Source: Nocardia neocaledoniensis
GTDB taxonomy: Bacteria; Actinomycetota; Actinomycetes; Mycobacteriales; Mycobacteriaceae
Reading direction: 5' to 3'
DNA: 64,000 nucleotides
Assembly (NCBI RefSeq): GCF_003182135.1
Contig: NZ_QGTL01000010.1
Location: 124,001 to 188,000, forward strand
Shown here one piece after another: positions 19,677 to 38,394 of the stretch (its first letter is position 1; each line of letters opens with the position of its first letter). The position numbers and the translations under genes are program-made. The notes beneath the pieces are model-generated. The model was not told the DNA's origin. It worked only from the letters and a program-made list of their open reading frames with translations, and did no database searches.

Positions 19677-19838
19677 CGTGGTGATCTCCTGCCGTGGACG
19701 GGCGTTCGATTGTCGACACGTCAACAGTAACCTGCGTCACCGACAGGCCCGACGCGCGCCACCCGGTCGAAGCTACCGGTGAGTCATCATGGTCAGATGG
19801 TGATCAGCGGTCACCTCGTGAGATTAGGAGTACGGTGC

Positions 19839-31735: not shown

Positions 31736-32761
31736 TCAGGTCTGCGCGAGCGGTTCGTAGGCGTCGGCGGCGATCCCGAAGGTCCAGGCGACGCCCTCAC
31801 GCGCGGTTCTGGTGCTGGGTGGTACCCGCAGCCAGTAGGTGCGGCTGGTCCCGTCGGGTTCCGGGGTGGAATTCACGACCTCGACCATCACCACGTCCTC
31901 GTCCCCGACGAGCGCGATCCGCCACAGGATGCCGGTCTCGTCGCGATGCACGGGCTCGGCACCGGATTCGGCGAGGTAGCGGTCGTAGCCGTAGTGCTCG
32001 AGCATGACCCGGCGCAGTTCGGCGTTGTCCTCCTCGCGGATCCGCTGCGGGGTCAACGCGGTGAGGGTGGCGAGGAATTCGGCGGGCACCGGCATGCCGC
32101 GCCAGGCGTACAGGGCGAAATCGTCGGCGTAACGCAAGGCGGGACCGTCACCGCGGTCGAGCCGGCCCGCCTCGTCGCGATGCAGTTCCCGCGGCCGCTC
32201 CGAGATCACCGCCACCTTCTCGTAGGGCCACCACCAGCCCGCCTCCGCGGCCACGGCGGCCACGCCGTCGAGCACGGCGCCGGGCGCGGTGTCGTAGGCG
32301 CTGAGCCACGCCGCCTCGTGCTGTCCGAGGACGGCGTCGAGCAGCAGCGCCCGAATCCGCCGCTCCGCCCGGCGATCACCCGCGGCCGCGGCGTCGACCA
32401 CGCCGGCGCGGATGCGCTCGACGACGGTGCCGGTGAGTTCCCACAGTTCGGCGCCGCTCGCCTGCCAGTGCGCGCTGTATCCGGTGGCGCCGAGGGCGGT
32501 GTGCAACCGGGCCCGTTCGGCGGCCCACGGTGCGCTGCGGACGGCTTCGCGGACCGGGGCGCCGGTGTCCAGCCCGTCGGCCAGCATCCGCACCGCGGCC
32601 AGGGGCGAGGGCGCCCACCGGATCTGTGCGGGTTCGGGCAGGCCTGCGCGCGTATAGGCCAGGCGCACACCGGCTTCCGCGCGGGCCCTGTCACCGGCGC
32701 CGGTCGCGGTCGCGACCGCCCGCCAGGTCGTGTTCGTCATCGTCGTCTCCGGCGCTGTCAT
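31736..32761 (-). CDS. DUF6745-type protein
   Basis: 341 aa, soluble. The C-terminal two thirds resemble DUF6745: 'HRDEAGRLDRGDGPALRYAD' followed by 'FALYAWRGMPVPAEFL', 'IREEDNAELRRVMLEHYGYD', and the ending 'GTSRTYWLRVPPSTRTAREG'. The N-terminal 170 residues are helical with Trp-rich blocks. The function is unknown. Its ATG overlaps the stop of the preceding 108-aa gene (TGATG), so the two form a coupled operon facing the STM4015-STM4011 cluster. The identification is from memory of the family pattern. Confidence 0.7.
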   Translation of the reverse strand: MTAPETTMTNTTWRAVATATGAGDRARAEAGVRLAYTRAGLPEPAQIRWAPSPLAAVRMLADGLDTGAPVREAVRSAPWAAERARLHTALGATGYSAHWQASGAELWELTGTVVERIRAGVVDAAAAGDRRAERRIRALLLDAVLGQHEAAWLSAYDTAPGAVLDGVAAVAAEAGWWWPYEKVAVISERPRELHRDEAGRLDRGDGPALRYADDFALYAWRGMPVPAEFLATLTALTPQRIREEDNAELRRVMLEHYGYDRYLAESGAEPVHRDETGILWRIALVGDEDVVMVEVVNSTPEPDGTSRTYWLRVPPSTRTAREGVAWTFGIAADAYEPLAQT

Positions 32762-33087
32762 CAGTCCGCCACCACCCGCACCGAACCGGGCACGTACTCA
32801 CGCTGCCGCACAACCCGGTACCACCCCTTCGGCAGCCCGATCGGCGCGTGTTCCTCGTGCACCACCCGCCCGCCTTCGGGCAGGTGCAGCAGCATCGGGC
32901 CGACCGTGCTGGACTCGCGAACGAGCTTGCCCGGCCCCGGAATCGCGTGCGCGTGCCCGGTCACCTCCCCGAGCGCCAGGACGAGTCTGCCCCGGCCGTC
33001 GCGCCGCTCCCCCGTCGCCGTGCGCGCTGTGGCGGGGACGGCGTGCTCGGCCAGCGGCACGATCAGCACATCGCCTTGTCGATACAT
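32761..33087 (-). CDS. small beta-rich protein paired with DUF6745
   Basis: 108 aa. It starts 'MYRQGDVLIVPLAEHAVP' and contains 'GEVTGHAHAI', 'LLHLPEGGRVVHEEHAPIGL' and 'GWYRVVRQREYVPG'. These are conserved-looking blocks of a beta-barrel-like protein with several His residues that could bind a metal. I know this type only as a companion of DUF6745 genes. AGGAG precedes the ATG by 6-7 nt ('GGGAGGAAATC'). It is the first gene of the operon divergent from the STM4015 gene. Confidence 0.7.
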   Translation of the reverse strand: MYRQGDVLIVPLAEHAVPATARTATGERRDGRGRLVLALGEVTGHAHAIPGPGKLVRESSTVGPMLLHLPEGGRVVHEEHAPIGLPKGWYRVVRQREYVPGSVRVVAD

Positions 33088-33242
33088 GATTTCCTCCCGT
33101 CGCGGCCCACATCCCCGGACCGATGGCGAGGACGGTAGCGACGGCCACCGACAACCACGCCCAGCGCGCGGAATGTCGGTGCCCCTTGGTAGAAACACTG
33201 CAGTCACACGGGGTCACTACGCCAGAAGGGGCGGGAACACAC

Positions 33243-34223
33243 ATGTCCATCGGAGAACATCTGCGCGGGTGGGGCGGACTGCCCGCCTACACGTTCCCGG
33301 ATCTGGAGAAGGACACGGCGGTGTGGGAGGACGTCGTGCGTCAGCTGCCCGCGGCCGAGGCGGTGGCATGGCGGATCGGCGTCGAATCCTATGAGCCCGA
33401 GGAGACCTGGCCCGACGCCTTCGCCCGCTTCCTCGCCGCGGTGGAGCCCGAACGGGTGCGGGCGATCATCGTCGGCTCCTGGGCCGACGCCTACGACAAT
33501 CGCCCCGACGACGTCATCGACGCGATCGTGGCCGCCCGCGAACGATTCCCGGCACTGCGCGCCCTGTTCGTCGGCGACATCATCGGCGAGGAATGCGAGA
33601 TCTCCTGGATCCATCAGGGTGAGGTCACCCGGCTGCTCGACGCGTTCCCCGCGCTCGAAGTGCTCGGTGTGCGCGGCGGCGAGAGCCTGGAGTTCCCCGC
33701 CATCCGCCACGAGCACCTGCGCACCCTGACCGTGCAGGCGGGCGGGCTGCCCGCCACGGTCGTACGCGGCATCGCGGCCAGCGACCTGCCCGCGCTGCAC
33801 GACCTCGAATTGTGGCTGGGCACTTCCGAATACGGCGGCGATGCCGACATCGCCGATCTCGCCCCGATCCTGACCGGTGACCGGCTGCCGAGCTTGCGTC
33901 GGCTCGCCCTGCGCAACAGCGAGATCCAGGACGCGGTGTGCGCCGCGGTCGCCTCGGCGCCGGTGGTGGCGCGGCTGAGCGAACTCGACCTGTCGATGGG
34001 AGTGCTCACCGACGACGGCGCCGCGGCCCTGCTCGGCGGCCAGCCGCTGACCCACCTGACCGCGCTGGACCTGCACTACAACTACGTCAGCCCCGAGATC
34101 GGCGCCCGCCTCACCGACGCGCTCACCCCCGCCGGTGTGCGCGTGAACCTCGATACCGACGACGCCGAGTCCGACGAGGACGACGACGGCTCGGTGTGGC
34201 GATTCGTCTCGGTCGGCGAGTGA
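33243..34223 (+). CDS. STM4015 family protein (leucine-rich)
   Basis: 326 aa. It matches the STM4015 family: 'ESYEPEETWPDAFARFL', 'ECEISWIHQGEVTRLLDAF', 'LWLGTSEYGGDADIADLAP', 'LRRLALRNSEIQDAVCAA' and 'LSELDLSMGVLTDDGAAALL'. The second half is an irregular leucine-rich repeat, which suggests a protein-binding scaffold. AGAAGGGG precedes the ATG. It is the first gene of the five-gene operon; the next start follows its stop by 6 bp. No function is known for the family. Confidence 0.85.
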   Translation: MSIGEHLRGWGGLPAYTFPDLEKDTAVWEDVVRQLPAAEAVAWRIGVESYEPEETWPDAFARFLAAVEPERVRAIIVGSWADAYDNRPDDVIDAIVAARERFPALRALFVGDIIGEECEISWIHQGEVTRLLDAFPALEVLGVRGGESLEFPAIRHEHLRTLTVQAGGLPATVVRGIAASDLPALHDLELWLGTSEYGGDADIADLAPILTGDRLPSLRRLALRNSEIQDAVCAAVASAPVVARLSELDLSMGVLTDDGAAALLGGQPLTHLTALDLHYNYVSPEIGARLTDALTPAGVRVNLDTDDAESDEDDDGSVWRFVSVGE

Positions 34224-34229
34224 GCTGAC

Positions 34230-35321
34230 GTGCGCTGGGTGGTGGTCGGCAACGCCGAGAACCGGCGGGTCCGGCTGTTCACCGACGCGGCCCGCGCGGC
34301 GGGGCTCCCGGCGCCGCGGATCGTGGCATGGCAGTCGGTGCTCGCCGACGGCGGTCACGATCTCGCGGACGACGAGATCGTGCGCCTGGACTCCCCGGGT
34401 GAGAACCCGGCGGTCGACAGGCTCCTGCGCGGGGTGGCCGAGCCGACCCGCGTGGAGGGTTCGGTGCGCTGGTACACGAACTTCCTGGCCGCGGTCGGCA
34501 CACTGCGCGGCGGAATCCGTCTCGACGATCCGGCTGAGCTGGCGGTGTCGTTCGACAAGCGGCGCTGCCATGGGCGGCTGCGCGCGGCCGGAGTGCCGGT
34601 GCCGCCTTCGCCGGTGACCGCCCCGATCCGTGGCTGGTCCGATGTGCGGGATCAGATGCGGGCGGCCGGGATGGCCAGGGTGTTCGTCAAACTCGCGCAC
34701 GGGTCGTCGGCCTCGGGTGTCCTCGCGATCGAGTCGACCGCGGCGGGCCGCTGGCAGGCGACGACGTCGGTGGAACGCGGTGCCGGCGGCGCCTTGCACA
34801 ATTCGCTGCGGGTACGCCGGTATCGCGACGAGCGCGAGATCGCGGCCATCGTCGACCGGCTCGCCCCGGACGGTCTGCACCTGGAACGCTGGCTTCCCAA
34901 GGCCACCACGGCGGGCCGCAGCGCCGATCTGCGGGTCGTGGTAGTCGCGGGCCGCGCCACCCACGCCGTGGTCCGCACCAGTCGCGGGCCGCTGACCAAT
35001 CTGCACCTGGGTGGCGCGCGCGGCGATCTCACCGAGGTCATGGCTGCGGCGGGCACAGCCTGGGACGAGGCGATGCGGATCTGTGAGCGCGCCGCCGCGT
35101 GCTTTCCCGCAACGCTGTGCGTCGGGGTGGACCTGCTGCCCGGTCTGGGGTGGCGCCGGTTCACCGTGGGCGAGGTCAACGCGTTCGGTGACCTGCTGCC
35201 GGGACTGACCGGTCTGCCCGGCACGCCCGGCGAAGGGCTCGACACCTATGCCACCCAGCTCGCCGCGGCGCCCGGTTTCGTCACCGGCACACCCGCCCCC
35301 GTCCCGATCGGATCGCGATGA
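34230..35321 (+). CDS. STM4014 family protein, ATP-grasp-like
   Basis: 363 aa, GTG start. Blocks typical of an ATP-grasp ligase are visible: the nucleotide-binding Lys in 'VFVKLAHGSSASGVLAI', 'HLERWLPKA', the metal-site Asp-x-Arg in 'SADLRVVVVAGRATHAVVRT', 'GPLTNLHLGG', and 'GEVNAFGDLLPG' (Glu-x-Asn). The last two resemble RimK-like enzymes. Such proteins join a carboxylate to an amine or thiol with ATP. The substrate is unknown. Its stop overlaps the start of the STM4013 gene (ATGA). Confidence 0.85.
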   Translation: MRWVVVGNAENRRVRLFTDAARAAGLPAPRIVAWQSVLADGGHDLADDEIVRLDSPGENPAVDRLLRGVAEPTRVEGSVRWYTNFLAAVGTLRGGIRLDDPAELAVSFDKRRCHGRLRAAGVPVPPSPVTAPIRGWSDVRDQMRAAGMARVFVKLAHGSSASGVLAIESTAAGRWQATTSVERGAGGALHNSLRVRRYRDEREIAAIVDRLAPDGLHLERWLPKATTAGRSADLRVVVVAGRATHAVVRTSRGPLTNLHLGGARGDLTEVMAAAGTAWDEAMRICERAAACFPATLCVGVDLLPGLGWRRFTVGEVNAFGDLLPGLTGLPGTPGEGLDTYATQLAAAPGFVTGTPAPVPIGSR

Positions 35322-36157
35322 TCACCACCGAACCCGTGCTCGCCCAGCCGGACATGACCGAGGTCGTCGGCCGCGACGACCTGCTGCTGCTCACCCTCGA
35401 CACCTTGCGCTACGACGTCGCGACCGAACTGGCCGCGGCCGGGCGCCTGCCCACCCTGTCGGCGTATCTGCCGGGCGGCCGCTGGCAGCGGCGACACGCG
35501 CCGGGCAGCTTCACCTATGCCTCCCATCAGGCGATGTTCGCCGGCTTCCTGCCCACCCCGGCCGCGCCCGGCCCGCATCCTCGCCTGTTCGCCGCGCGTT
35601 TCGCGGGCAGCGAGACCACCGCCGAGGGCACCTTCGTCTTCGAGGAACCCGAGCTCGTCTCCGCGCTCGGCGGCCGCGGGTATCACACCATCTGTGTCGG
35701 GGGCGTCGGGTTCTTCAACAAGCAGGGCGCGCTGGGCAGCGTGCTGCCCGATCTGTTCACCGAAAGTCATTGGGCCCCCGAGTTCTCCGTGGTCTCGCCG
35801 ACCTCGTTCGAAGCGCAGGTGGCGTGTGCGCGGCGCGCGGTCGCCGCGGTGCCCGCCGGGCGCCGGGTGTTCCTGTTCCTCAACGCCTCGGCCCTGCACC
35901 AGCCGAACTGGTTCCACCTGCCCGGCGCGACCCGCGAGGCGGGTGACACCCGCGAAACCCACGCGGCCGCACTGGAATACATCGACGCGCACATCGGCCG
36001 GCTCTTCGAGGCGATGCGCGCGCGTGGCCGATGCTTCGCGATCGTGTGTTCCGACCACGGCACCGCGTACGGGGAGGACGGCTACACCGGCCACCGGATC
36101 GGGCACGAGTCCGTCTGGACGGTGCCCTACAGCCACTTCTTCCTGGAGCCGTCATGA
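35318..36157 (+). CDS. STM4013/SEN3800 family hydrolase (alkaline-phosphatase fold)
   Basis: 279 aa. Metal-site blocks of the alkaline phosphatase/sulfatase superfamily are present: 'LLLTLDTLRYD' (Asp28), the nucleophile region 'PGSFTYASHQAMFAG' (about 63-76), and 'VCSDHGTAYGEDGYTGHRIG' near the C terminus with Asp and His ligands. There is no signal peptide, unlike most sulfatases, so it acts in the cytoplasm. A phosphoester, phosphodiester or sulfate ester is the expected substrate class. ATGA overlaps on both sides couple it to its neighbours. Confidence 0.85.
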   Translation: MITTEPVLAQPDMTEVVGRDDLLLLTLDTLRYDVATELAAAGRLPTLSAYLPGGRWQRRHAPGSFTYASHQAMFAGFLPTPAAPGPHPRLFAARFAGSETTAEGTFVFEEPELVSALGGRGYHTICVGGVGFFNKQGALGSVLPDLFTESHWAPEFSVVSPTSFEAQVACARRAVAAVPAGRRVFLFLNASALHQPNWFHLPGATREAGDTRETHAAALEYIDAHIGRLFEAMRARGRCFAIVCSDHGTAYGEDGYTGHRIGHESVWTVPYSHFFLEPS

Positions 36158-37491
36158 TCAGCGCCGTCCTGCCCCGCCCCTATCAGAACTACGTCTACGC
36201 CTACCCGCACAAAACGGCCTATCGTCCGCTGCCGGAGCGGCCCGCGCTGTCGCGGGTGTGGGCGGGGGAACCCCGGTCGGCGCTGTCGCTGTATCTGCAC
36301 ATCCCGTTCTGCGAGGTGCGCTGCGGCTTCTGCAATCTGTTCACCCGGGTCGGCGCGCCCGACGAGCTCACCACCCGCTATCTCGACGCCCTCACCCGCC
36401 AGGCCGGCGCGGTCCGTGACGGGCTCGGCGACGCCGAACCCGTCCGCTTCGCCACCGCGGCCTTCGGTGGTGGCACCCCCACCTACCTCGACGCCGATGA
36501 ACTCACCAGGCTCTGCGATATCGCCGAGAACGTGATGGGCGCGGATCTGCGCGCGATCCCGCTGTCGGTGGAGGCGTCGCCACCCACCGCGACCAGCGAC
36601 CGGCTCGCCGTCCTCGCCGAGCGCGGCGCGACCCGGTTGAGCCTGGGCGTGCAGAGCTTTGTCGAGGCCGAAGCCCGCGCCGCGGTGCGCCCGCAGCGCC
36701 GCGCCGACGTCGAGGCGGCGCTGGGCCGGATCCGCGCCACCGCGATCCCGGTCCTCAATATCGACCTCATCTACGGCATCGACGGGCAGACCGCCGCGAG
36801 CTGGCGGGTGTCCCTGGACGCGGCGCTGGCCTGGCGGCCCGAGGAAATCTACCTCTACCCGCTCTATGTGCGGCCACTGACCGGGCTGGCGCGGCACGCC
36901 GATCCCGCTGTCGCCGAACAGGAATGGGACAGCGAGCGGCTCGCCCGCTATGCCGAGGGCCGCGATCATCTGATGGCCAACGGCTACGAGCAGGTGTCGA
37001 TGCGGATGTTCCGGCGCGCCGACGCCCCACCGCAGGGCCCCGACGACTACGCCTGCCAGACCGACGGCATGATCGGCCTGGGGTGCGGTGCCCGCTCCTA
37101 CACCCGCACGCTGCACTACTCCTTCGACTACGCCGTCGACATGCGCGCGGTCCGCGGCATCATCGACACCTACGTCGCGACCACCGATTTCGGTTCCGCG
37201 CTGCACGGCCGGGTGATCGACGGCGACGAAGCCGCCCGCAGGCACCTGCTGCAATCACTGCTCCAGGCCCAGGGGCTGGCGGTGGCCGACTACCGCACAC
37301 GCTTCGGCACCGACCCGTGGGACGACTTCGGCCCCGAACTGCACGCCCTCGCCGACCGCGGCTGGCTCGCCGACACCGACGCGGAGACACTGCGCCTGTC
37401 GGAGCGGGGACTGGCCTACTCCGACGCGATCGGCCCCGACTTCTTCTCCCCCGCCGTGCGCGCCGCCATGGCCGCCTACGAGCTGCGGTGA
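36154..37491 (+). CDS. STM4012 family radical SAM protein (HemW/HemN-like)
   Basis: 445 aa. The radical SAM cluster is C53-x3-C57-x2-C60 ('HIPFCEVRCGFCN'), followed by 'FGGGTPTYLDADELTRLC', 'LSVEASPPT', 'RLSLGVQSF' and 'NIDLIYGIDGQT', all as in HemN/HemW. The residue two after the third Cys is not Cys, so the extra HemN cysteine is missing. The C-terminal domain ('LLQSLLQAQGLAVADYRTRF') is the HemW-type winged region. It probably performs a radical step on an unknown substrate and not coproporphyrinogen oxidation. Start overlaps STM4013 (ATGA). Confidence 0.9.
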   Translation: MISAVLPRPYQNYVYAYPHKTAYRPLPERPALSRVWAGEPRSALSLYLHIPFCEVRCGFCNLFTRVGAPDELTTRYLDALTRQAGAVRDGLGDAEPVRFATAAFGGGTPTYLDADELTRLCDIAENVMGADLRAIPLSVEASPPTATSDRLAVLAERGATRLSLGVQSFVEAEARAAVRPQRRADVEAALGRIRATAIPVLNIDLIYGIDGQTAASWRVSLDAALAWRPEEIYLYPLYVRPLTGLARHADPAVAEQEWDSERLARYAEGRDHLMANGYEQVSMRMFRRADAPPQGPDDYACQTDGMIGLGCGARSYTRTLHYSFDYAVDMRAVRGIIDTYVATTDFGSALHGRVIDGDEAARRHLLQSLLQAQGLAVADYRTRFGTDPWDDFGPELHALADRGWLADTDAETLRLSERGLAYSDAIGPDFFSPAVRAAMAAYELR

Positions 37492-37494
37492 GCC

Positions 37495-38394
37495 GTGGAC
37501 CTGACGATTCTCTACCGGGGACCGCTGGCCTCCTGCGACTACGACTGTCCGTACTGCCCGTTCGCCAAGCGCCGCGACTCCACCGCGCAGCTGCGCGCGG
37601 ATCGTGCCGCGCTGCACCGGTTCACCGCGTGGGCGCTGGCCCAGCGCGGCGACCGGCTCTCCGTGTTGTTCACGCCGTGGGGCGAGGGGCTGGTGCGTTC
37701 CTGGTACCGCGACGCGCTGGTCGAGCTGTCGCGGCAGCCGCACATCGAGCGAGTCGCCATCCAGACCAACCTGAGCGGGCGCATCGCGTGGACCGCCGAG
37801 GCCGACCCCGACACGCTCGCCCTGTGGTGCACCTACCACCCCGGTCAAACCCCGTATGCGCGGTTCCTCGACAAGACCCACCGGCTGGCCGGGGCAGGGA
37901 TCCGCTTCAGCGTCGGCATCGTCGGGCTCCCCGAACACCTCGAGCACGCCCGCAGGCTGCGCGCCGATCTGCCCGAGCACGTCTACCTGTGGGTGAACGC
38001 GGCCGAGGGCCACACCTACACCGACGAGGCCGCGGCCGAGTGGACCGCGATCGACGCGCTGTTCCCGTTCAGCCGTCACCCGCACCGTTCGGCCGGATCT
38101 CCCTGTCGCACAGGCTCTTCGGTCATCTCCGTGGACGGCGAGGGCACCGTCCGGCGCTGCCACTTCGTCCGCACACCGCTGGGCAACCTCTACGACGGGA
38201 CCTACCGCGCCGCGCTGACACCGCGCGCGTGTCCGCTGGGCGTCTGCGATTGCCACATCGGCTACGTCCACCTCGAGACGCTGCCGCTGTACGACGTGTT
38301 CGCCGGTGGCGTCCTCGAACGCATCCCCGCGACGGCTCAGCGGGCGACACCCAGCGACAGGGCCCCGAACGCCTTGGGCGCGCCGGCCAGGTAG
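37495..38394 (+). CDS. STM4011 family radical SAM protein
   Basis: 299 aa, GTG start 3 bp after the STM4012 stop. The cluster motif is C14-x3-C18-x2-C21 ('LASCDYDCPYCPFAK'), followed by 'FTPWGEGLVRSWY', 'AIQTNLSG' and 'LWCTYHPGQTPYARFLDKTH'. More cysteines occur late ('GSPCRTG', 'RRCHFVR', 'RACPLGVCDCHIGYVH'), enough for a second iron-sulfur cluster like SPASM or Twitch domains. It is the last gene of the operon; its last 58 bp overlap the convergent methyltransferase gene. Confidence 0.9.
   Translation: MDLTILYRGPLASCDYDCPYCPFAKRRDSTAQLRADRAALHRFTAWALAQRGDRLSVLFTPWGEGLVRSWYRDALVELSRQPHIERVAIQTNLSGRIAWTAEADPDTLALWCTYHPGQTPYARFLDKTHRLAGAGIRFSVGIVGLPEHLEHARRLRADLPEHVYLWVNAAEGHTYTDEAAAEWTAIDALFPFSRHPHRSAGSPCRTGSSVISVDGEGTVRRCHFVRTPLGNLYDGTYRAALTPRACPLGVCDCHIGYVHLETLPLYDVFAGGVLERIPATAQRATPSDRAPNALGAPAR

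Follow-up and report, generated by a model that had tools for sequence, protein, structure and literature searches.

Among the amino-group carrier systems (LysW/LysX, ArgW/ArgX and Vzb22), LysX attaches an amino acid to LysW, a carrier ending in EDWGE, through the gamma-carboxylate of the carrier's C-terminal glutamate, and an E54A substitution in ArgW results in arginine auxotrophy, according to parts of PMC10433800. Passages of PMC9303977 describe enzymes acting on such carriers as recognising the acidic residues of the carrier, and also describe pearlin pathways (PEARL carrier peptides leading to 3-thiaglutamate and ammosamide), in which a building block is made on the C-terminus, in one case with a radical S-adenosylmethionine (SAM) enzyme. 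RimK, which glutamylates S6, is likewise an ATP-grasp enzyme acting on a protein C-terminus. Here, these systems are compared with the STM4015-STM4014-STM4013-STM4012-STM4011 operon at positions 33243-38394 of a 64,000-nucleotide stretch of Nocardia neocaledoniensis DNA (contig NZ_QGTL01000010.1, positions 124,001 to 188,000; assembly GCF_003182135.1), referred to as the window, in a genome of 7.32 Mb and 29 contigs. The explanation preferred here, whose prospects of being right or wrong appear evenly balanced, is that STM4015 is a leucine-rich-repeat (LRR) carrier or substrate whose terminal glutamate is covalently loaded by STM4014, the load then being modified by the radical SAM enzymes; both chemistry and product are inferred.

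Like the amino-group carrier systems, the operon combines a protein whose acidic C-terminal region ends in glutamate with putative tailoring enzymes and an ATP-grasp enzyme that remotely resembles RimK and LysX. In contrast to their zinc-finger carriers of approximately 54 residues, however, STM4015 is an LRR protein of approximately 320 residues, and the tailoring enzymes of the operon are radical SAM proteins and phosphohydrolases. Amino-group carriers are served by an Arg/Lys-type kinase, a reductase, an aminotransferase and a releasing hydrolase, none of which was a conserved neighbour in nine annotated loci with incomplete gene tables. Because LysW is a small zinc-finger protein, the parallel with STM4015 can be regarded as one of function and not of descent. 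The pearlin pathways are similar in that a building block is made on a C-terminus, but the operon has an ATP-grasp enzyme instead of a PEARL, and its proposed carrier is folded.

The five genes are adjacent and co-directional on the forward strand. A first-pass annotation of the window, made from its letters and open reading frames, had described gaps of 3-6 bp or ATGA overlaps between them, and the reading frames and spacing agree: in the order STM4015 to STM4011, the junctions are a 6-bp gap, two ATGA overlaps and a 3-bp gap. The family assignments of that annotation were likewise borne out by a profile search against NCBIfam, in which all five proteins exceed the curated cut-offs: STM4015 (33243-34223) matches NF038076 with 389.9 bits (cut-off 275), the ATP-grasp ligase STM4014 (34230-35321, GTG start) NF038074 with 442.1 bits (175), the alkaline-phosphatase-fold hydrolase STM4013 (35318-36157) NF038075 with 415.4 bits (250), the HemN-like radical SAM protein STM4012 (36154-37491) NF006067 with 635.1 bits (380), and the radical SAM protein STM4011 (37495-38394, GTG start) NF038073 with 408.8 bits (200). 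By adjacency, direction and scores, the locus is therefore an STM4011-STM4015 operon. Relatives were found in at least 535 genome stretches, of which the best-scoring 80 were kept (Streptomyces, Nocardia and close kin, and hence biased towards the window). Among the matches listed, the closest named relative of STM4011 comes from Nocardia neocaledoniensis (94%), the records of the window itself possibly being absent from that list. All five genes are present and in the same order in 75 of these 80 named actinobacterial loci, so their co-occurrence is not due to chance, and the suggestion of a biosynthetic or modification pathway holds up.

The operon is already catalogued and thus adds no new gene family. 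Four of the five families are entered in NCBIfam as hypothetical equivalogs or a subfamily. Open-access literature searches found no functional paper on the operon or its families, in keeping with the earlier statement that no function is established. The passages of PMC3844500 and PMC2784778 that bear on the operon genes mention them merely in passing and do not contain the family names, a table in the mouse study PMC4632510 lists STM4010 as a putative hydrolase, and a section of PMC11964587 reports a broad distribution of PRK08208 homologues. New here are the STM4015 tail and the links to ligases and to promoters, together with the divergent gene pair and the HAD fusion described below; their novelty in print is judged only from the same open-access searches.

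The C-terminus of STM4015

Tails were compared among STM4015 matches of at least 250 bits with the stop codon inside the locus, counting identical last 150 residues once; 44-bit LRR matches in L019 and L022 were dropped. The last residue is glutamate in all 127 distinct sequences so defined, tandem and orphan copies included, while none of the other four operon families has an invariant position among its last 12. Mean entropy is 0.88 bits in the seven-residue tail, compared to 2.02 bits in the preceding linker, which is variable and acidic, and 1.37 bits in the body. In the window the tail reads WRFVSVGE, its last seven residues being encoded at 34200-34220 on the forward strand. Tandem copies end in RYTAVSE or RYVAVSE, and the corresponding residues are WRYPSLTE in Paenibacillus, WYYPMITE in Bacteroides, YMNAMYTE in Salmonella and YMNPMFTE in E. 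coli; the sole invariant residue within the tail is the terminal glutamate.

Four orphan STM4015 copies that have no STM4014 downstream (L003/L157, L012/L156, L118/L161 and L070) retain the tail, each in a genome or locus that also holds the operon (coordinates L157:1420-2382, L156:3987-4937 and L070:691-1659, all on the reverse strand, and L161:5286-6488 on the forward strand). Since the terminal glutamate is invariant, lies behind a variable acidic linker, and is kept in orphan and tandem copies, the comparison points to STM4015 as the probable substrate or carrier of the pathway. The leucine-rich protein had originally been proposed as a scaffold or sensor, a description that is probably incomplete in light of this residue.

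The glutamate could instead be a by-product of translational coupling, with the terminal GAR codon serving as the Shine-Dalgarno sequence of STM4014; in the loci inspected, this codon often lies a few bases ahead of the next start. However, both glutamate codons are used (GAG in 90 sequences and GAA in 37), all three stop codons follow, the four orphans end in glutamate without an STM4014 gene downstream, and the E. coli protein keeps its glutamate despite a 59-bp gap to the next gene. A Shine-Dalgarno origin was rejected on these grounds and is extremely improbable.

The AlphaFold2 model of STM4015 has an LRR fold with a mean predicted local distance difference test (pLDDT) score of 93.1, and the last six residues score approximately 67. 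The nearest PDB entry is 2ra8 (Foldseek E 3.9e-19; profile E 8.1e-104, 350 bits), a Bacteroides fragilis protein (Q64V53) that belongs to the STM4015 family and whose alignment ends in YSYPMITE. Unlike the window protein, it has a longer N-terminus; it was deposited as uncharacterised, and no paper citing 2RA8 or Q64V53 was found in the open-access literature. An N-terminal WGR domain, which hints at nucleic acids, is present in two Bacteroides-type STM4015 proteins (L028:6513-7583 and L154:1318-2391); WGR domains occur in PARP-type proteins.

LRR proteins often bind partners, and the low pLDDT of the last six residues may mean that they are free to bind another protein. Both observations would suit a pure scaffold, in which one of the enzymes or the STM4015 fold would bind the tail as a docking motif without any covalent change to it. 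Such a role is nevertheless unlikely, given that the strongest invariance falls on the terminal residue itself and that the ligase of the operon is most like those that use a terminal glutamate.

STM4014 and the proposed tailoring enzymes

When the STM4014 profile was compared with the PDB, the five best matches were LysX/RimK-type chains (E 2e-5 to 4e-5), followed by biotin carboxylase (5e-4). We take 1uc8 and 1uc9, which the PDB lists as a lysine biosynthesis enzyme, to be LysX. Similarly, an HHalign comparison of 102 STM4014 sequences with E. coli RimK and 11 distinct ATP-grasp places of the Nocardia genome returned RimK as the top template (95%, E 4e-8, 200 columns), ahead of a biotin-carboxylase-like protein (89%) and the remaining places (at most 41%). 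The alignment with RimK shares D-x-R, N-L-H-x-G-G, GVD-x-L and EVN, and D233, R235, R249, T256, N257, D301 and N317 of STM4014 are invariant in nine of nine sequences and aligned to LysX and E. coli RimK. The segments D-x-R...R...T-N/S-N and GVD...EVN presumably form the ATP-grasp site. The ATP-driven ligation envisaged in the first-pass annotation fits a RimK-like ligase of this kind.

With RimK as the best template, STM4014 could also (poly)glutamylate STM4015 as RimK does S6, so that the modified LRR protein would act as a regulator or hub, for example in a damage response, while the other enzymes work on a separate small molecule. The WGR domains of the two Bacteroides-type proteins and the damage-type promoters described below are compatible with tagging of this sort. 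The linkage of all five genes, in contrast, suggests one joint pathway and not a mere ligase-substrate pair, and regulatory tagging is considered quite improbable.

The profile of STM4013 is nearest to nucleotide pyrophosphatase/phosphodiesterases (NPPs; 7n1s and 2gsn), and Thr66, which is invariant in eight of eight sequences and presumably the nucleophile, aligns with the NPP segment S-L-T-F-P-N-H; the ester hydrolysis proposed earlier is consistent with both features. STM4012 carries a CX3CX2C motif and is nearest to HemN (1olt) and NocN (9p2u). In STM4011, a CX3CX2C motif is combined with a SPASM/twitch-like, cysteine-rich C-terminus (C-X12-G-X4-C...CX4CXC). The motif and five further cysteines (C204, C222, C246, C251 and C253) are invariant in nine of nine sequences, and Pfam SPASM matches the STM4011 proteins of two Bacteroides-type relatives below its cut-off. 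Additionally, two Bacteroides-type loci (L028 and L154) encode STM4011 as a fusion with a Cof-type HAD phosphatase, and a Cof-type HAD gene lies directly 3' of STM4011 in Salmonella and E. coli. Because the HAD enzyme is fused to or adjoins STM4011, it is likely to provide a further step in these lineages.

The sole PDB match of the STM4011 profile is SkfB (6efn), a peptide-modifying radical SAM enzyme. This match raises the possibility of a pathway resembling those of ribosomally synthesised and post-translationally modified peptides, in which the last 7-8 residues of STM4015 would be a core peptide that is cross-linked or otherwise modified in place by the radical SAM enzymes and then cut off, with the LRR body as a giant leader and the ATP-grasp enzyme forming an internal amide as in graspetides. 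The tail is short and conserved, contains aromatic residues and follows a variable linker, as would suit such a precursor; tandem STM4015 copies resemble precursors, and transporters of differing kinds adjoin some operons. Yet only the terminal glutamate is invariant; at position -5, Ser or Asn replaces the aromatic residue in 6 of the 127 sequences, including those of Methylobacterium, Salmonella, E. coli, L154 and G006. The tails examined contain no cysteine, and no conserved protease was seen in the nine annotated neighbourhoods. A peptide product of this type is therefore on the whole unlikely.

Under the preferred explanation of STM4015 as a loaded carrier or substrate, its body would dock the enzymes, and the flexible acidic linker would present the short hydrophobic tail ending in glutamate. 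STM4014 would activate a carboxylate of this glutamate and join an amine to it, perhaps an amino acid. STM4011, STM4012 and the phosphohydrolase STM4013 would then alter the attached group, with the HAD phosphatase adding to its modification in Bacteroides-type loci and enterobacteria. The product would either be released or be kept as a modified C-terminus of STM4015.

Several observations weigh against this explanation. The relation of STM4014 to RimK and LysX is a remote likeness and not family membership, since STM4014 scores 20.5 bits against TIGR00768 (cut-off 143.4) while other ATP-grasp proteins of the same genome reach up to 40 bits; the 11 TIGR00768 matches in that genome, all below the cut-off, do not include STM4014. 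Plain membership in the RimK family was rejected for this reason, and STM4014 also differs from RimK in sitting with radical SAM genes. Against 1uc8, single stretches of STM4014 give weak matches (E 0.39 and 0.88). STM4015 is not a relative of LysW and lacks the EDWGE motif, and the tail set is largely actinobacterial (115 of the 127 sequences, with 12 from other phyla and 2ra8 in addition). Nor is terminal invariance unique to STM4015: YRQ, a neighbouring protein discussed below, has an invariant C-terminal Asp in 78 of 78 distinct sequences. The transporters adjoining the operon vary, with TauE/SafE in Streptomyces, efflux genes in Paenibacillus, MFS in Salmonella and MATE in Bacteroides. 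The main weakness of a metabolite-carrier role is the missing releasing enzyme. The nine annotated neighbourhoods, for which the plasmid gene tables are incomplete, showed neither a peptidase nor a releasing enzyme that was conserved; release is thus unsupported, and a lasting modification of the C-terminus would also fit.

RecA-NDp-type promoters and the YRQ-DUF6745 unit

The first-pass annotation called the locus complete, a description that falls somewhat short: it missed a divergent two-gene unit, promoters of the DNA-damage type, and the HAD phosphatase present in other lineages. The unit extends the module leftward to 31736 and comprises, both on the reverse strand, a gene for a 108-residue protein with the N-terminus MYRQGDV, here called YRQ (32761-33087), and a DUF6745 gene (31736-32761; PF20530, 383 bits). 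In the 72 loci that could be tested, namely those of the 80 that contain the full set of five and extend far enough upstream, YRQ and DUF6745 are both present on the opposite strand in 63 and both absent from 9.

The RecA-NDp consensus is given as tTGTCRgtg-8nt-TannnT in a part of PMC5656591, and passages of PMC6789036 state that PafBC acts through this motif. The 155-bp intergenic region of the window holds two divergent sites. Upstream of YRQ, TTGTCGGTG-N8-TACCGT (33132-33153 from TGTC onward, reverse strand) fits the full consensus; upstream of STM4015, TGTCGGTG-N8-TAGAAA (33174-33195, forward strand) is RecA-NDp-like, with a -10 element that lacks the final T.

A strict form of the motif, TGTC[AG]GTG-N8-TA, was sought within 300 bp upstream, leaving out 10 non-actinobacterial loci and setting aside one contig-edge copy. 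It precedes 66 of 93 first STM4015 copies and none of 21 second tandem copies, and occurs in 1.55% of a control set of 20,000 random windows, which were taken from these loci and include the operon promoters. Allowing one mismatch, the numbers are 82 of 93 first copies versus 2.5% of random windows. When the 93 upstream regions were grouped by shared 10-mers into 75 clusters, 49 representatives had the strict motif. Among the 74 YRQ genes with 300 bp upstream and a recognisable start, 34 have the motif (a count without a control of its own), in each case as the full TTGTCRGTG-N8-TANNNT, and in 33 of the 34 it lies at -62 to -73 (at -132 in the other).

As a further parallel to the PafBC/RecA-NDp regulon, the same motif precedes repair genes elsewhere in this genome. 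There are 53 sites compared to 5 in a reversed control. Fifty were fetched; the other three are the two sites of the operon and one on contig C17. An open reading frame starts downstream of 41 of the 50, and 40 of the proteins were scanned (L217 was left out). Twelve of the 40 belong to DNA repair or replication: recA, ligA twice, nfo, sbcD, an XPB helicase, an ATP-dependent ligase, a PcrA-type helicase, polA, uvrA, uvrB and dnaB. By a crude test, six of the 41 sites seem to lie inside a longer frame, including the ones ahead of the XPB, polA and uvrA genes. Two adjacent WYL genes on C17 are plausibly a pafB-pafC pair. A third site of this type in the window (19728-19745, reverse strand; C10:143728-143745) precedes a 118-residue frame that has no NCBIfam name at E <= 1e-25. 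Genes equally without such a name stand behind sites at L182, L193, L209, L210, L215, L218 and others of this genome, and are candidate DNA-damage genes.

Given promoters of the RecA-NDp/PafBC type, the actinobacterial operon and the YRQ-DUF6745 pair are probably expressed as part of the DNA-damage response, with induction predicted from the motifs. A Streptomyces gene with a RecA-NDp promoter and ultraviolet induction is described in a section of PMC5087735. Other points argue against such a role. The strict motif is missing from 27 of the 93 first copies, 11 of which lack even the one-mismatch form, and from three of the four orphan copies (L118/L161 has it). Unlike the regulon consensus, the -10 element on the STM4015 side is TAGAAC-like, its sixth base being C in 59 and A in 7 of the 66 sites and never T. 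Outside actinobacteria, no convincing damage motif was seen in the loci scanned. Regular expressions found no LexA-type site upstream in Salmonella, E. coli, Paenibacillus, Methylobacterium or Deinococcus, a crude RDRM pattern gave half-sites only, and the two Bacteroides-type loci show one CTG-N10-CAG inside an inverted-repeat stretch and GAAC-N7-GAAC far upstream. Finally, in a passage of PMC9380542, an initial search suggested that the PafBC motif of M. smegmatis is not conserved in S. venezuelae. The prediction of a damage regulon is independent of the chemistry, and is stronger for the YRQ-DUF6745 side than for the STM4015 side.

The association of the pair with the operon extends to other lineages and has limits. 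In 59 genomes of the genus, strong DUF6745 matches (above 350 bits) and strong YRQ matches fall in the same 13, all of them among the 17 with STM4011. Weaker DUF6745 matches (40-117 bits, above the Pfam cut-off) are the sole ones in 11 further genomes, 10 of which have no STM4011, and the wider DUF6745 family thus also lives apart from the operon. In Deinococcus and Methylobacterium, the pair also lies beside the operon, in differing orientations, and the Paenibacillus, Salmonella, E. coli and Bacteroides loci gave no match to it; therefore, it is associated with the operon and not essential. A confident structural model of DUF6745 (pLDDT 92) has no PDB match with E <= 0.001, showing local matches only (Z <= 3.4), and YRQ has no PDB sequence match at E <= 1 and matches one PHROG of unknown function.

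Taken together, the C-terminal and promoter evidence would accommodate a broader and more doubtful proposal: a new class of carrier-protein biosynthesis, in which the glutamate of STM4015 carries a growing small molecule that an ATP-grasp enzyme loads and the two radical SAM proteins remodel, and which actinobacteria use in the PafBC response with DUF6745 and the 108-residue partner. If STM4015 is a carrier, folded LRR proteins would join LysW and the pearlin peptides as platforms for building metabolites; if the regulon assignment is correct, the response of actinobacteria to DNA damage would gain a new arm that uses radical SAM chemistry. Both parts offer something testable, namely one carboxylate on one invariant residue and a predicted regulon.

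Distribution and gene neighbourhoods

The operon spans several phyla, well-known gut bacteria included. It occurs in Actinomycetota, Deinococcota, Bacillota, Bacteroidota, Alphaproteobacteria and Gammaproteobacteria, and the gene order of the window recurs in three Deinococcus records, Methylobacterium, Paenibacillus, Salmonella and E. coli. It is accessory and patchy, since STM4015 exceeds its cut-off in 16 of the 59 genus genomes and occurs in 6 of 346 genomes sampled across the phylum. The 16 are a subset of the 17 genus genomes with STM4011; in the 17th (G025, L155), STM4011 is accompanied by a short piece of STM4012 within the 12.5 kb fetched. STM4011 was also found in 154 of 5,426 complete E. 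coli genomes and in 13 of 72,556 records of a plasmid collection, one of which is 11.9 Mb long.

Of the five actinobacterial loci without the full set in order, three (L067, L072 and L097) begin at a contig end. The other two contain no Ns: L094, an 8-kb contig, has a truncated STM4013 with STM4012 and STM4011 and has neither STM4014 nor STM4015, and in L100 STM4014 adjoins STM4011 and the other genes are missing. A record of Bacteroides finegoldii shows only fragments of these two genes, STM4013 and STM4012 (L028:8572-8950), between STM4014 and the STM4011-HAD fusion. Tandem STM4015 genes occur in 20 of the 80 loci.

A known defence system is not supported by PADLOC, in which six of the seven proteins had no match and STM4012 matched one model over 119 residues with 29.7 bits. 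In viral contigs, a single-sequence query found no STM4014 relative, and two STM4015 loci are present. Five IMG/VR contigs (L148-L152) hold distant STM4011-like radical SAM loci of 21-24% identity, some contigs having two or three. In E. coli LF82 (L167), the operon lies between yih-type genes (yihU, an aldolase, a sugar kinase and a DeoR regulator) and typA.

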